A stretch of DNA of 64,000 bases from Verrucomicrobiaceae bacterium (GTDB lineage Bacteria > Verrucomicrobiota > Verrucomicrobiia > Verrucomicrobiales > Verrucomicrobiaceae), in assembly GCA_019694165.1 (NCBI GenBank), contig JAIBCL010000008.1, forward strand, positions 186,001 to 250,000, written 5' to 3'. Shown piece by piece: positions 24,529 to 30,345 of the stretch; positions within the stretch are counted from its first letter, which is position 1; every line of letters begins with the position of its first letter. Both the position numbers and the translations under genes were made by a program. The notes beneath the pieces were generated by a model, which saw only the letters and a list, made by a program, of their open reading frames with translations, had not been told where the DNA came from and did not search any database.

Positions 24529-24576
24529 GATGATTTTCTTCCTATAACGAACCTTTATCGGCATCATAGGAAGAAA
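24529..24576. repeat. Left palindromic element flanking the ATPase gene
   Basis: A 48-base element ending four bases before the ATPase start. It begins GATGATTTTCTTCC and ends TCATAGGAAGAAA. Its arms TTTCTTCCTAT and ATAGGAAGAAA are perfect inverted repeats about 20 bases apart. The right arm contains AGGAAG, correctly placed to be the ribosome binding site, so folding of the transcript would hide it. The same element, in the same orientation, occurs at 25982-26028. Confidence 0.85.
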
Positions 24577-24579
24577 CTC

Positions 24580-25986
24580 ATGTTCATCGGAAGAGACGAA
24601 GAACTGAAGACTCTGCGCCGCGCGATCACCGCGCGCGAGGCCCGCATCGCGGTTGTTTACGGACGGCGGCGCATCGGGAAGACATCGCTGATCCGCCAGG
24701 CCGTCGGCCGGGCACCGGCGCTTTTTATCGAAGGACTCGAGGGCCGCTCCACGCAGGCGCAGATCCAGAGCTTCATCACGCAGGCATCGCGGCAATTGCA
24801 CAAACGCCTGCCTGAGTGCGGCTCGTGGCAGGACGCGCTCATGGCGCTGGACGCCGCGATGGGGAAGCGGCCCATGATCATCGTGCTCGACGAGTTCCAG
24901 TGGCTGGCAAATTACCGGCAGGAGCTTGTGTCCACCTTGAAGATGGTGTGGGAGAACTACATCGCCCGTGCGCCGGGCCGCACACTCATCCTGTGCGGCT
25001 CCATCGCCTCGTTCATGACCACGAAGGTCATCCGCTCCAGCGCGTTTTACGGACGCACTGACGTGGTGGTGCATCTGCAGGGATTCCGTCTCGCCGAGAC
25101 CGCGAGGCTCCTGCGCGGGCGCGGATTTCAGGAAGTGCTCGATGCGCAATGCTTCACCGGTGGCGTGCCGAAGTATCTCGAACTGCTCGCCGCCGCGCCC
25201 TCGGTAGCGCTTGGCATGGAGAAGGAGGCGTTCCGTCCGCAAGGTTTTTTTGTCGAGGAATACGAGCGCATCTTCGTCAGCCACTTCGGCCGCAATGCCG
25301 AGTATCCGCGCCTCGTGCGCGTGCTGGCCGCCGCTCCCTACGGCCTGCACCGGCGCGAGCTGGCGGCACGCGCGGACATCGCGGAAGGCGGGATGCTCAG
25401 CCAGCGGCTCTACGACCTGGAAGCCGCCGGCTTCATTTCATCGCACACGCCTTTCGACAAGGAACCGGGATCCCGCCTCATCCGCTATTACATCAGCGAT
25501 CCGTGGATCAGCTTCCACCACGCCTTCCTGCGCACGCGGCTCAAGCAGATTCACGACGGCGGAAAAAAGAACATCTTCATCTCGCTGCGGCAGACCGGCG
25601 CCTTCCGTGCATGGATGGGCCGCGCATTCGAACTCGTCTGCCTGCGGCATCAGGACACGCTCGCGCGGTTGCTGGGCTTCGACGCCGTGGATTACGACGC
25701 CGGCCCGTGGTTTCGCTCGCCGCGCAAAGGCATCGCCGGCGTGCAGATCGACCTCGCCTACAACCGCGCGGACGGTGTGATCACGCTCTGCGAAATGAAG
25801 CGCCAGACCGCGCCGCTGGGCCGGGCGGTGATCGCGGAAGTGGAGCGGAAGGCCGCCACGCTGCGCAACGCGCATCCGCGCCGCACGATCCAGCCCGTGC
25901 TGGTCGTGTACGGCCCCGTGTCGAAGGAGGTGACGTCCGCCGGTTACTTCCAGCGTATTGTGCAGGCAGAGGAAATGTTCGGATGA
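24580..25986 (+). CDS. AAA ATPase with winged-helix and PD-(D/E)XK-like C-terminal (DUF234-type) domain
   Basis: Protein of 468 residues in the COG1672-type ATPase group. Residues 1-200 form a STAND/AAA-like ATPase: Walker A GRRRIGKTSL (28-37), Walker B MIIVLDEFQWL (99-109) and sensor-like LILCGSIASFM (136-146). A winged-helix stretch follows (about 243-288). The C-terminus (345-468) fits the DUF234 pattern: E351 in MGRAFELVC, D391 in VQIDLAY and E405-x-K407 in CEMKRQ. That is the E...D...ExK arrangement of PD-(D/E)XK nucleases. The start was chosen at 24580, behind AGGAAG inside the left palindrome. The stop codon lies within the right palindrome. Exact bracketing by a near-identical pair of elements suggests the gene and elements travel or function as a unit. 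Function is unknown. Confidence 0.85.
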   Translation: MFIGRDEELKTLRRAITAREARIAVVYGRRRIGKTSLIRQAVGRAPALFIEGLEGRSTQAQIQSFITQASRQLHKRLPECGSWQDALMALDAAMGKRPMIIVLDEFQWLANYRQELVSTLKMVWENYIARAPGRTLILCGSIASFMTTKVIRSSAFYGRTDVVVHLQGFRLAETARLLRGRGFQEVLDAQCFTGGVPKYLELLAAAPSVALGMEKEAFRPQGFFVEEYERIFVSHFGRNAEYPRLVRVLAAAPYGLHRRELAARADIAEGGMLSQRLYDLEAAGFISSHTPFDKEPGSRLIRYYISDPWISFHHAFLRTRLKQIHDGGKKNIFISLRQTGAFRAWMGRAFELVCLRHQDTLARLLGFDAVDYDAGPWFRSPRKGIAGVQIDLAYNRADGVITLCEMKRQTAPLGRAVIAEVERKAATLRNAHPRRTIQPVLVVYGPVSKEVTSAGYFQRIVQAEEMFG

Positions 25987-26028
25987 TTTTCTTCCCATGA
26001 CGTTCTTTTTCAGCGTCATAGGAAGAAA
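25982..26028. repeat. Right palindromic element flanking the ATPase gene
   Basis: A 47-base direct copy of the left element. The first 14 and last 13 bases are identical to it, while the centre differs and is one base shorter. Arms TTTTCTTCCCATGACG and CGTCATAGGAAGAAAA form a 16-base inverted repeat with one mismatch. It overlaps the last codon and stop of the ATPase gene. Central differences are concentrated in the loop, while the arms are conserved. Confidence 0.85.
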
Positions 26029-26089
26029 ATTGTTCTTGGCAAAACCCACATTCTGCCGCCGTCGATTCCGGTGCACCCGCCTCACATGC

Positions 26090-27702: not shown

Positions 27703-30345
27703 ATGAATGCCGTTTTTGATAATTTGATGCCTCGACGGGCAACGTGGCGGCTGACGCCCGCTGTCGGCGGACTTCTCCTCAGCCACGTCGTGGCGCTCAC
27801 AGGTCTGTGGGCAGCGCCAATCGAGTTCACTAACGGAACAGCTATCTATCCTTCGTCGGGTGATACGTCGGACTACGCTGGCTCGGGGGTGCTCACGGTG
27901 GTCGCCAACATATACAACTCTTCGCGAATGAGCGGGACGATCTCCGACTCAGGTGGAGTCGCGAGTCTGGTCAAGACGGGCGGCGGGCCTCCGGGGCGCG
28001 ACCTTGGCAGCACCGGGGGTGGCACGCTGACGATGACGGGTGCCAACACTTACACGGGCAGTACTACGGTGCTCAGCCGCACACTACACCTGGACTTCAC
28101 CGCTGGCGGCGCACCCACCGAGGACATTCTCTACCACGGTGTAACCGCCGGGGAGTTGATCTTGGGAACGGCTTCATTCCCCGGCAGGCCGTCGGTACCG
28201 GATCTGAGCGCCACCTATCAACAAACGGGTGGGGTTCAGCATTTCGGCGGGCTCACCCTGTCGCCGGGAGGAAACAAGATCGTGTTCACTGCGGGCTACG
28301 ATGCTTTCCTCAGCCTGGGCGAGATCACGCGCGCGCGGGCGAGCTACCTCGACGTTCCTGTCAATTCCAATCCCACGAGCACATCGGCCATCCGCACGAC
28401 GACAACAAATACGAACGGCATCCTCGGTGCTTGGGCCACGGCAGGCACGGACTGGGCGGCGAACGACGGCACGGGAAACATCGTGCCGTTTACTGGCTAC
28501 GTCGCCCCGGCGGAAGTGGGTGGCGTGCCGGTCATCAACAGTGATGCCGGGCAAAACGTGCGCATCACCACCGAGCCATCCGGCCCCGTACATCTCGCGG
28601 GACCGGGTGTCACCGACATGAACACGCTGATGATCACCGGCCCTTTTTCAGGAACGCTGGCGATCGAAGCGGGCCAAACGCTGCGCCTGGGTGATGGGGG
28701 CGGCATCTGGGTGCAGTCCACAGGCGCGGCCTGGAACATCGGTGCTCCCGGCACCGGCGGCACGCTGGTCGCGAACTCGAGCGCCGGTGAGACCGGGGAG
28801 ATCATTTTGCGTCACAATGTGATCGTCAACGCCACCATCGCTGACAACCCCGGAGGCGGGGCAACTGCACTCTCCGTGAACGGCGACTCTGTGGCGCTCA
28901 CCGCCGCCAATACCTATTCGGGCGGCACCGTCGTCAGTTCGGGCACTGTCAACGCTGCGAGCGCAACAAGTCTTGGAACCGGTCCGGTTTACATCGGCAG
29001 TGCGGCGAGGGTTGTGTTCGCTCCTGATGCGGGAGTTGTGACGAACGACTTTGATCTTTCCCCTGTCGTGCGGCCCTACGATAACGGCTACACGGAGCTG
29101 CCCGCTCCTTCTCTCTCTGGCGGCACCACGCTGGGGACATCGGCTAGCACCATCCACCTGAGTACCATCGGTGCCATCGGTGGTACGGACACCGTGATAG
29201 CCGCCAAAATCACCGGAGCGGGAGCTGCCTGGCTCACAGGCACGGTGGCTCTCGCCAATCCGCTCAACGACTATTCGGGGGGCACCCAGATCAATGGCGG
29301 ATACGTTCCGACCGTGCTCACCATCGGAGCCGAAGGGGTCATTCCGCACGGAGTCGGTAACGGCAACGTGACCATCGTTCAGTCCCGGTATCAGCACAGT
29401 GCCGTCACACTCGACATCAATGGGCACGACACCACGATTAATGGACTGAGTTCATACGCATTCACCTCTTACGAGGGAACGGGACGTGGTCCCGTCACCC
29501 TCACCAATGGTGGAGCTGCGGGCCTGGCAACTCTCACCGTTGGAGATGGCAATGGCTCGGGCACTTACTCCGGTGGCATAACTGACGGCCCCACCGCCAA
29601 GCTCGCCCTGAATAAGATCGGTTCCGGCACTCAAACCATGCGCGGGACGCTCGACTACACGGGGGGCACGACGGTGTCGGAAGGGATCCTTGCCGTCTCA
29701 GGATCCATCGCCGGCAGCGTGATGGTGAAACCCGGCGGCACCTTCTTCAGCGAGTATTCCATTGCCAATGCATCGAACATCTCGCTCCAAGGAGCAGGGA
29801 TCTCGCAGCACGCCACCTTTGCCCCTGGCGGCGGCGTTCAAAACCAGCTTCAGCTCGACAGCATAGGCGACGCTCTGTCGCCTGGTTTGGGCTACATCGC
29901 CAACACGACTTTCACGACGTCTCAGAACTGGTCCGCGTTTACTTACAAATGGGATGAGGACAGCTCCTTGGCAGGCAGCGACCAGATCACTATTGAAGGC
30001 GCGCTCGGTCTCACTGGAGGGCCCGGAAGTTACATCCTGGAAATGCACAACCTGGGAAGCACCTTTCCCTATCTCGAACCGCCCCAGGATATGCTCGCCG
30101 AAATCGTCCGGACATGGGACATCATCAAGACCACCGGCGGCATCACCGGTTTCGATGCCTCGCAATGGCTGCTCGACACGTCCGGCTTGAATCTCAATCC
30201 CAACCTGACAGGTGTCTTCACGCTCGCTCAAAACGGAGACAACCTTCAGTTGCAATACACGGCCCAGCAGGTTCCTGAACCATCAAGCGCGGCACTCGTC
30301 ACCATCTTCATCATCGGCGCGGCCATCCGGCGGAGGAAACGGTGA
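27703..30345 (+). CDS. Autotransporter-repeat surface protein with PEP-CTERM anchor
   Basis: Large exported protein of 880 residues. A long signal peptide (cleavage near WAAPIEF, about residue 39) precedes a beta-helix-type body rich in Gly, Thr, Ser and Asn. Autotransporter-associated beta strand (PATR-like) repeats include LTMTGANTYTGSTTV near 108, LTAANTYSGGTVVSSGTV near 396 and MRGTLDYTGGTTVSEGIL near 646. The end is a textbook PEP-CTERM sorting signal: VPEPSSAALV, a hydrophobic span, then RRRKR. Family knowledge says an exosortase processes such tails; no exosortase is in this window. It is flanked by unrelated genes. It is probably a cell-surface or extracellular matrix protein, with no identifiable enzyme motif. 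Confidence 0.88.
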   Translation: MNAVFDNLMPRRATWRLTPAVGGLLLSHVVALTGLWAAPIEFTNGTAIYPSSGDTSDYAGSGVLTVVANIYNSSRMSGTISDSGGVASLVKTGGGPPGRDLGSTGGGTLTMTGANTYTGSTTVLSRTLHLDFTAGGAPTEDILYHGVTAGELILGTASFPGRPSVPDLSATYQQTGGVQHFGGLTLSPGGNKIVFTAGYDAFLSLGEITRARASYLDVPVNSNPTSTSAIRTTTTNTNGILGAWATAGTDWAANDGTGNIVPFTGYVAPAEVGGVPVINSDAGQNVRITTEPSGPVHLAGPGVTDMNTLMITGPFSGTLAIEAGQTLRLGDGGGIWVQSTGAAWNIGAPGTGGTLVANSSAGETGEIILRHNVIVNATIADNPGGGATALSVNGDSVALTAANTYSGGTVVSSGTVNAASATSLGTGPVYIGSAARVVFAPDAGVVTNDFDLSPVVRPYDNGYTELPAPSLSGGTTLGTSASTIHLSTIGAIGGTDTVIAAKITGAGAAWLTGTVALANPLNDYSGGTQINGGYVPTVLTIGAEGVIPHGVGNGNVTIVQSRYQHSAVTLDINGHDTTINGLSSYAFTSYEGTGRGPVTLTNGGAAGLATLTVGDGNGSGTYSGGITDGPTAKLALNKIGSGTQTMRGTLDYTGGTTVSEGILAVSGSIAGSVMVKPGGTFFSEYSIANASNISLQGAGISQHATFAPGGGVQNQLQLDSIGDALSPGLGYIANTTFTTSQNWSAFTYKWDEDSSLAGSDQITIEGALGLTGGPGSYILEMHNLGSTFPYLEPPQDMLAEIVRTWDIIKTTGGITGFDASQWLLDTSGLNLNPNLTGVFTLAQNGDNLQLQYTAQQVPEPSSAALVTIFIIGAAIRRRKR

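Follow-up and report, generated by a model that had tools for sequence, protein, structure and literature searches.

We report that one gene in a 64,000-nucleotide stretch of a Verrucomicrobiaceae genome (contig JAIBCL010000008.1, positions 186,001 to 250,000; hereafter the window) encodes a protein of three parts, an ATPase, a winged helix and a PD-(D/E)XK nuclease domain with an intact catalytic set, and that it is flanked by palindromes which occur at this gene only and which move and diverge together with the protein. On these grounds we propose, giving the proposal an even chance, that the gene constitutes by itself an ATP-gated nuclease system belonging to the PDC-S27 family, which recognizes its own private palindromes, is autoregulated and probably serves defence. 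The features that carry the argument are the following, numbered as in the window.

24580–25986, forward strand: ATPase–winged helix–PD-(D/E)XK gene of the PADLOC PDC-S27 family, 468 amino acids (PF01637, E 5.1e-16; PDLC04984, E 2e-92).
24580–25194, forward strand: P-loop ATPase domain, approximately residues 1–205, with Walker A GRRRIGKT and Walker B LDEF (structural matches 2qen, Z 21.0, and 2fna, Z 20.0).
25300–25497, forward strand: winged-helix-like unit, approximately residues 241–306 (helices 241–250, 258–265 and 271–282; strands 286–289 and 302–305).
25573–25983, forward strand: C-terminal PD-(D/E)XK nuclease domain, residues 332–468, with E351, D391, E405-x-K407 and K424 (predicted local distance difference test, pLDDT, 92.8; EndoMS 5gke, Z 10.4).
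24530–24581, no strand: upstream palindrome, 48-base-pair (bp) form, arms 24530–24545 and 24566–24581 (score 11, reached by 0 of 60 shuffles).
25986–26030, no strand: downstream palindrome, 47 bp, arms 25986–26002 and 26014–26030 (score 13, reached by 0 of 60 shuffles).

The encoded protein begins with MFIGRDEE, and its AlphaFold model (mean pLDDT 91.6) shows, in order, the ATPase, a helical region, the winged-helix-like unit and the C-terminal domain. The protein scores 59.6 bits against ATPase_2 (PF01637), whose gathering cut-off is 33.2, and both Walker motifs are present. Residues G28, R29, R30, R31, G33, K34, D104 and E105 of the ATPase are kept in 93 of 93 family proteins, a set drawn from Verrucomicrobiota, other bacteria, archaea, plasmids and viruses in which near-identical copies were retained. 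The ATPase fold resembles that of ORC/Cdc6 and also that of STAND proteins, with TnsC and MuB among its structural neighbours. The winged-helix-like unit consists of three helices and two strands placed N-terminal to the nuclease core and is the putative reader of the palindromes; as many as 7 of 27 relatives give weak helix-turn-helix Pfam matches for it.

A reading made from the sequence alone had placed a PD-(D/E)XK-like catalytic set behind a winged helix, and both assignments hold in the AlphaFold model. E351 (codon 25630–25632) is carried by helix 340–356, D391 (25750–25752) by strand 388–396, and E405 (25792–25794) and K407 (25798–25800) by strand 400–408, which together make up one helix and two strands of the core; helix 416–431, bearing K424, comes after the last of these strands. 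The elements of the C-terminal domain follow the alpha-beta-beta-beta-alpha-beta order of the PD-(D/E)XK core, with E351 in the first helix, D391 in the second strand and E405/K407 in the third. Modelled separately (the pLDDT listed above), this domain has mostly PD-(D/E)XK nucleases as its top PDB neighbours by VIA-align: EndoMS 5gke is the best (108 residues, root-mean-square deviation, rmsd, 3.3), ahead of NucS 2vld (Z 10.3) and AF1548 1y88 (Z 9.5), and then VC1899, Can2, Cdn1, Card1, McrC and R.BspD6I2. Foldseek returns a single match under E 0.001, again 1y88, and a sequence profile search gives a merely borderline match to NucS (E 0.057). The C-terminal domain almost certainly has a nuclease fold.

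Conservation of the four residues points the same way. E351 and D391 are invariant in a 27-member alignment, with E405 and K407 nearly so, and among the 93 family proteins E351 and D391 are kept in all, E405 in 89 (Ser in the other four) and K407 in 91 (Arg in the other two), leaving the full set intact in 87. Because this conservation extends across the 93 proteins, the catalytic set is beyond chance, and the nuclease assignment of the sequence-only reading is borne out by fold and conservation alike. The rates of nonsynonymous (dN 0.035–0.071) and synonymous (dS 0.62–0.80) change in the nuclease domain of two close pairs indicate that the domain is under purifying selection in these pairs; the ATPase part evolves similarly. 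This part of our analysis is a correct rediscovery, since the architecture is already published: the accessible text of PMC12988326 describes PDC-S27 as an ATPase domain joined to a PD-(D/E)XK member.

The palindromes, which the earlier reading had also placed next to the gene, proved to be real, confined to the gene and conserved along with it. The upstream palindrome runs up to the start codon and overlaps the likely ribosome-binding site, and the downstream one starts inside the TGA stop codon. A degenerate half-site pattern has two matches in the window, versus none in 100 shuffles of it, and the full palindrome pattern has two matches in the whole 7.8-megabase genome, both flanking the gene. 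Across five genomes the half-site, allowing up to one mismatch, has 18 matches, every one of them in gene-flanking palindromes. The palindromes are thus private to the gene.

The same association is seen in close relatives. Eight close copies of the gene lie in five gene neighbourhoods, all with palindromes retained: that of the window, that shared by genomes G047 and G031, that of G014, that of G001, G057 and G045 (which have a common downstream gene) and that of G056. A shorter palindrome pattern is present in 7 of 96 relatives' genomes, and all seven carry a close copy; in G001, the one other genome with a close copy, the palindrome has diverged. The length is exactly 47 bp in 15 of the 17 palindromes of close relatives, and such a fixed half-site spacing suggests that the site is read as duplex DNA and not as a hairpin. 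Symmetry is kept under base change: two relatives have CAGCC in place of CTTCC on one arm and carry GGCTG on the opposite arm. Over 14 of the 17 palindromes, 6 of 18 pairs are altered on both sides and 91.7% of cells are paired, versus 44–53% in slid controls, the paired percentages being biased upward since the aligned palindromes came from a pattern that expects one.

We then extended the comparison to 67 family copies, including 40 further copies fetched from the phylum, where 41 of 240 genomes have a family match. An upstream inverted repeat that no more than 3 of 60 shuffles equal is found at 58 of the 67 copies (54 of 61 once six near-identical partners are removed). An upstream score of at least 10 is reached by 53 of the 67 copies versus 11 of 108 control genes, a comparison in which the controls come mainly from Verrucomicrobiaceae loci and 40 copies from the wider phylum sample, a limit from which the shuffles are free. 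Plasmid and viral copies pass the inverted-repeat test in 15 of 26 cases (13 of 23 after duplicate removal), and two halobacterial copies, L173 and L175, fail it upstream. Of 58 loci, 37 carry extra half-sites upstream, where 3.2 would be expected, and 14 carry them downstream (1.95 expected); in 26 of the 58, at least five A or T stand in a row in the half-site spacer (4.3 expected). Tandem sites are 48–56 bp apart in 36 of 55 cases, with spacings clustering at 51–56, 62–63 and 72–74 bp. Upstream of seven copies (L132, L136, L155, L020 and L022–L024) the palindromes form regular tandem arrays with a period of 51 or 54 bp, the longest having five or more in a row. One family member appears to be broken, its pieces lying in different frames with a TAG (genome G088, contig C106, 12541–13566). 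Downstream, a score of at least 10 is reached by 4 of 53 dereplicated copies versus 10 of 108 control genes. Terminal inverted repeats were considered as a family-wide rule and rejected, downstream palindromes being rare beyond the close relatives.

The sites change in step with the proteins that adjoin them. Among the 58 copies, a site similarity of at least 8 is seen in all 6 pairs with protein identity of 90% or more, in 77% of the 31 pairs at 70–90% and of the 13 pairs at 60–70%, in 30% of the 79 pairs at 50–60%, and in 4% of the 187 pairs at 45–50%, which is near background. Paralogues within one genome (57 pairs, from 13 genomes with 2–6 fetched copies) are at most 54% identical, and their sites differ. 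Three genomes, G311 (L132, L136, L137, L139, L140 and L155), G219 and G164, hold five or six highly divergent copies each, most with a distinct palindrome of its own. A genome search with the pattern of another clade's palindrome found it, in G164, at its gene only; this pattern is too narrow for G311, where its miss is uninformative. Such co-divergence fits each protein reading its own site, and generic terminators would hardly produce it. What is found here, palindromic putative operators beside the gene and diverging with its product, is one mark of a self-regulated transcription factor.

Based on the above data, we propose the following mechanism. Assembled into a dimer or higher oligomer, the protein would use its winged helix to bind the approximately 47-bp palindromes, and this binding would keep its own expression low. 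A trigger such as invading DNA may then release or activate the ATPase, and the oligomer could license nucleic-acid cutting by the PD-(D/E)XK domain, probably in anti-phage defence. The steps differ in weight. Judging from the co-variation of site and protein, cognate binding of the palindromes is very probable; autoregulation appears slightly favoured, and a defence role, for which we rely on family assignment, falls a little short of an even chance.

Several observations weigh against this proposal. No sigma-70-like promoter was found beside the window gene, and across the family half-sites overlap a promoter in 9 of 32 loci (11.0 expected), which is not above chance. The downstream palindrome is present in all close relatives, though autoregulation does not need it. 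Helical phasing of the tandem sites amounts to a suggestive hint that is not significant (p 0.18–0.36 versus two nulls, 19 independent families). The identities of the ATPase, winged-helix and nuclease parts correlate about equally with site similarity (0.29–0.30), and so single out no domain as the one that sets site specificity. Lastly, the assignment to defence comes from a PADLOC model that itself describes a candidate, and the copy has core-type genes around it, with no visible defence island. An impression by eye, at several loci, that half-sites resemble −35 boxes is not claimed, the promoter overlap count being at chance.

The principal rival, which we regard as unlikely, is that the gene is a single-gene mobile element, whose ends are the palindromes and whose ATPase and PD-(D/E)XK domains excise, copy or home the gene. 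Tn7 pairs TnsA-type nucleases with TnsC-type ATPases, and the structural matches of the ATPase to TnsC and MuB are in keeping with such a role. So too is the distribution of the eight close copies over five unrelated neighbourhoods, the palindromes travelling along. In the window the gene sits among core-type genes, trxB and a GYF-domain gene (named from their translations); in the sister genome G001, of the same genus, these two are adjacent, separated by 82 bp and free of the element, and this genome carries its own copy elsewhere. Likewise, the site occupied by the element in G031 and G047 is occupied by a different gene in G024. That gene (L180, 1150–2030) is exonuclease-like, a name given from reading its sequence, and suggests an exchange hotspot.

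A more distant case is offered by Wolbachia phage WO. A 27.8% identical relative in MN180249.1 (L178, 2840–4540, with L183 and L184) is inserted after a head-tail/minor-capsid gene and before the head gene that follows, two genes that directly adjoin each other in the WO records WOVitA1 (HQ906662) and KX522565. These two records lack the relative and have at the junction a single related ACCGCC...GGCGGT palindrome, whereas in the occupied phage two such palindromes stand upstream of the ATPase; the junction palindrome may be either a pre-existing target or a scar. Against movement, neither clean ends nor a target duplication could be read: homology to the element-free sites ends about 50–100 bp outside the palindromes, and the flanks have diverged too far for the ends to be placed. 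Moreover, most copies outside the close relatives have upstream palindromes only, the shorter pattern finds no solo palindromes in the 96 genomes, and no recent transposition is seen, the 13 multi-copy genomes holding no near-identical copies (maximum 54% identity; draft assemblies may collapse repeats). Still less probable is a stronger form, in which each family gene would be a self-recognizing DNA element with an orthogonal site code, whose ATPase and nuclease use the sites to move or copy the gene; it would be a one-gene mobile system with no DDE, tyrosine, serine or HUH enzyme, and defence would be a by-product.

We consider it improbable that the palindromes work at the RNA level, as terminators, attenuators or insulators, and are never read by the protein. 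A short T run follows the downstream palindrome in several close relatives, and the upstream palindrome covers the likely ribosome-binding site, as such elements might. However, a terminator scan calls neither palindrome of the window gene, the upstream arrays carry extra half-sites in the 37 loci counted above, and the sites, unlike generic terminators, are private to the gene and diverge in step with its protein.

It is very improbable that the gene forms a plasmid-partition or replication-type system whose centromere- or origin-like sites would be the arrays. The regular arrays, with their 48–56-bp spacing in 36 of 55 cases, the ORC/Cdc6-like as well as STAND-like fold of the ATPase and the presence of relatives on 151 plasmid records would suit it, but most examined copies are single genes on large bacterial contigs with no ParB-like or Rep partner noticed; systems of this type are not known to include a nuclease domain, which also counts against it. 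Least credible of all is a degenerate nuclease fold that serves DNA binding only: one of the four residues is missing from 6 of the 93 relatives, against the complete set in 87 and the low dN/dS of the nuclease domain.

Elsewhere in the window, a large repetitive open reading frame of 880 amino acids (27703–30345) ends in VPEPSS...RRRKR, which resembles a PEP-CTERM-type sorting tail.

Returning to the ATP-gated nuclease that we favour, its nuclease domain is not itself news, and the DNA sites are the less expected part. The PDC-S27 family numbers thousands, and if each member recognizes a private palindrome of about 50 bp, the sites would name the DNA bound by each protein. With them, autoregulation, cleavage and movement could be tested directly, and they would constitute a natural set of orthogonal protein–site pairs, up to six per genome.

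The closest known system is PADLOC PDC-S27 (PDLC04984) itself, an uncharacterized single-gene phage-defence candidate, which the window protein matches end to end (residues 2–467 on profile positions 4–473 of 474). According to the accessible text of PMC12988326, the family counts 3503 members in archaea and 4562 in bacteria, and validation is pending for most PDCs; the origin of PDC-S27 is given there as bacterial and in the accessible text of PMC13356809 as archaeal. Palindromes, present at the window gene, are not mentioned in that text of PMC12988326, in whose main text 'palindrom' and 'operator' have no occurrences, and the literature covered, which mostly leaves out subscription journals and so yields a weak negative, contained no description of palindromes beside PDC-S27-type genes. 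The protein is also like the 'archaeal ATPase' proteins that combine ATPase_2 with DUF234 (PF03008), exceeding the ATPase_2 gathering score; DUF234 is matched by 17 of 27 aligned relatives and not, even at E 10, by the window protein. Two archaeal Walker-type ATPases, 2qen (PABY2304; 294 residues, rmsd 3.4) and 2fna (SSO1545; 289 residues, rmsd 3.2), align over the ATPase and winged helix, with the alignment stopping at residues 315–316, so that the nuclease domain has no counterpart there. DUF1703 proteins, AAA+ with a C-terminal PD-(D/E)XK domain, belong to a different Pfam family, and no cognate palindromes are mentioned for them in the accessible text of PMC1913061. Likeness in the C-terminal domain extends to other PD-(D/E)XK nucleases (Can2, Card1, McrC, FokI, MspJI, SduA and LmuA) and is closest for EndoMS/NucS, with 108 residues aligned to 5gke and, at rmsd 3.9, to 2vld. 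The D-to-E spacing of 14 equals that of EndoMS (D165, E179 and K181). The two differ in that identity is about 11–12%, the EndoMS N-terminal domain is absent here, and the nuclease of the window protein is joined to an ATPase.
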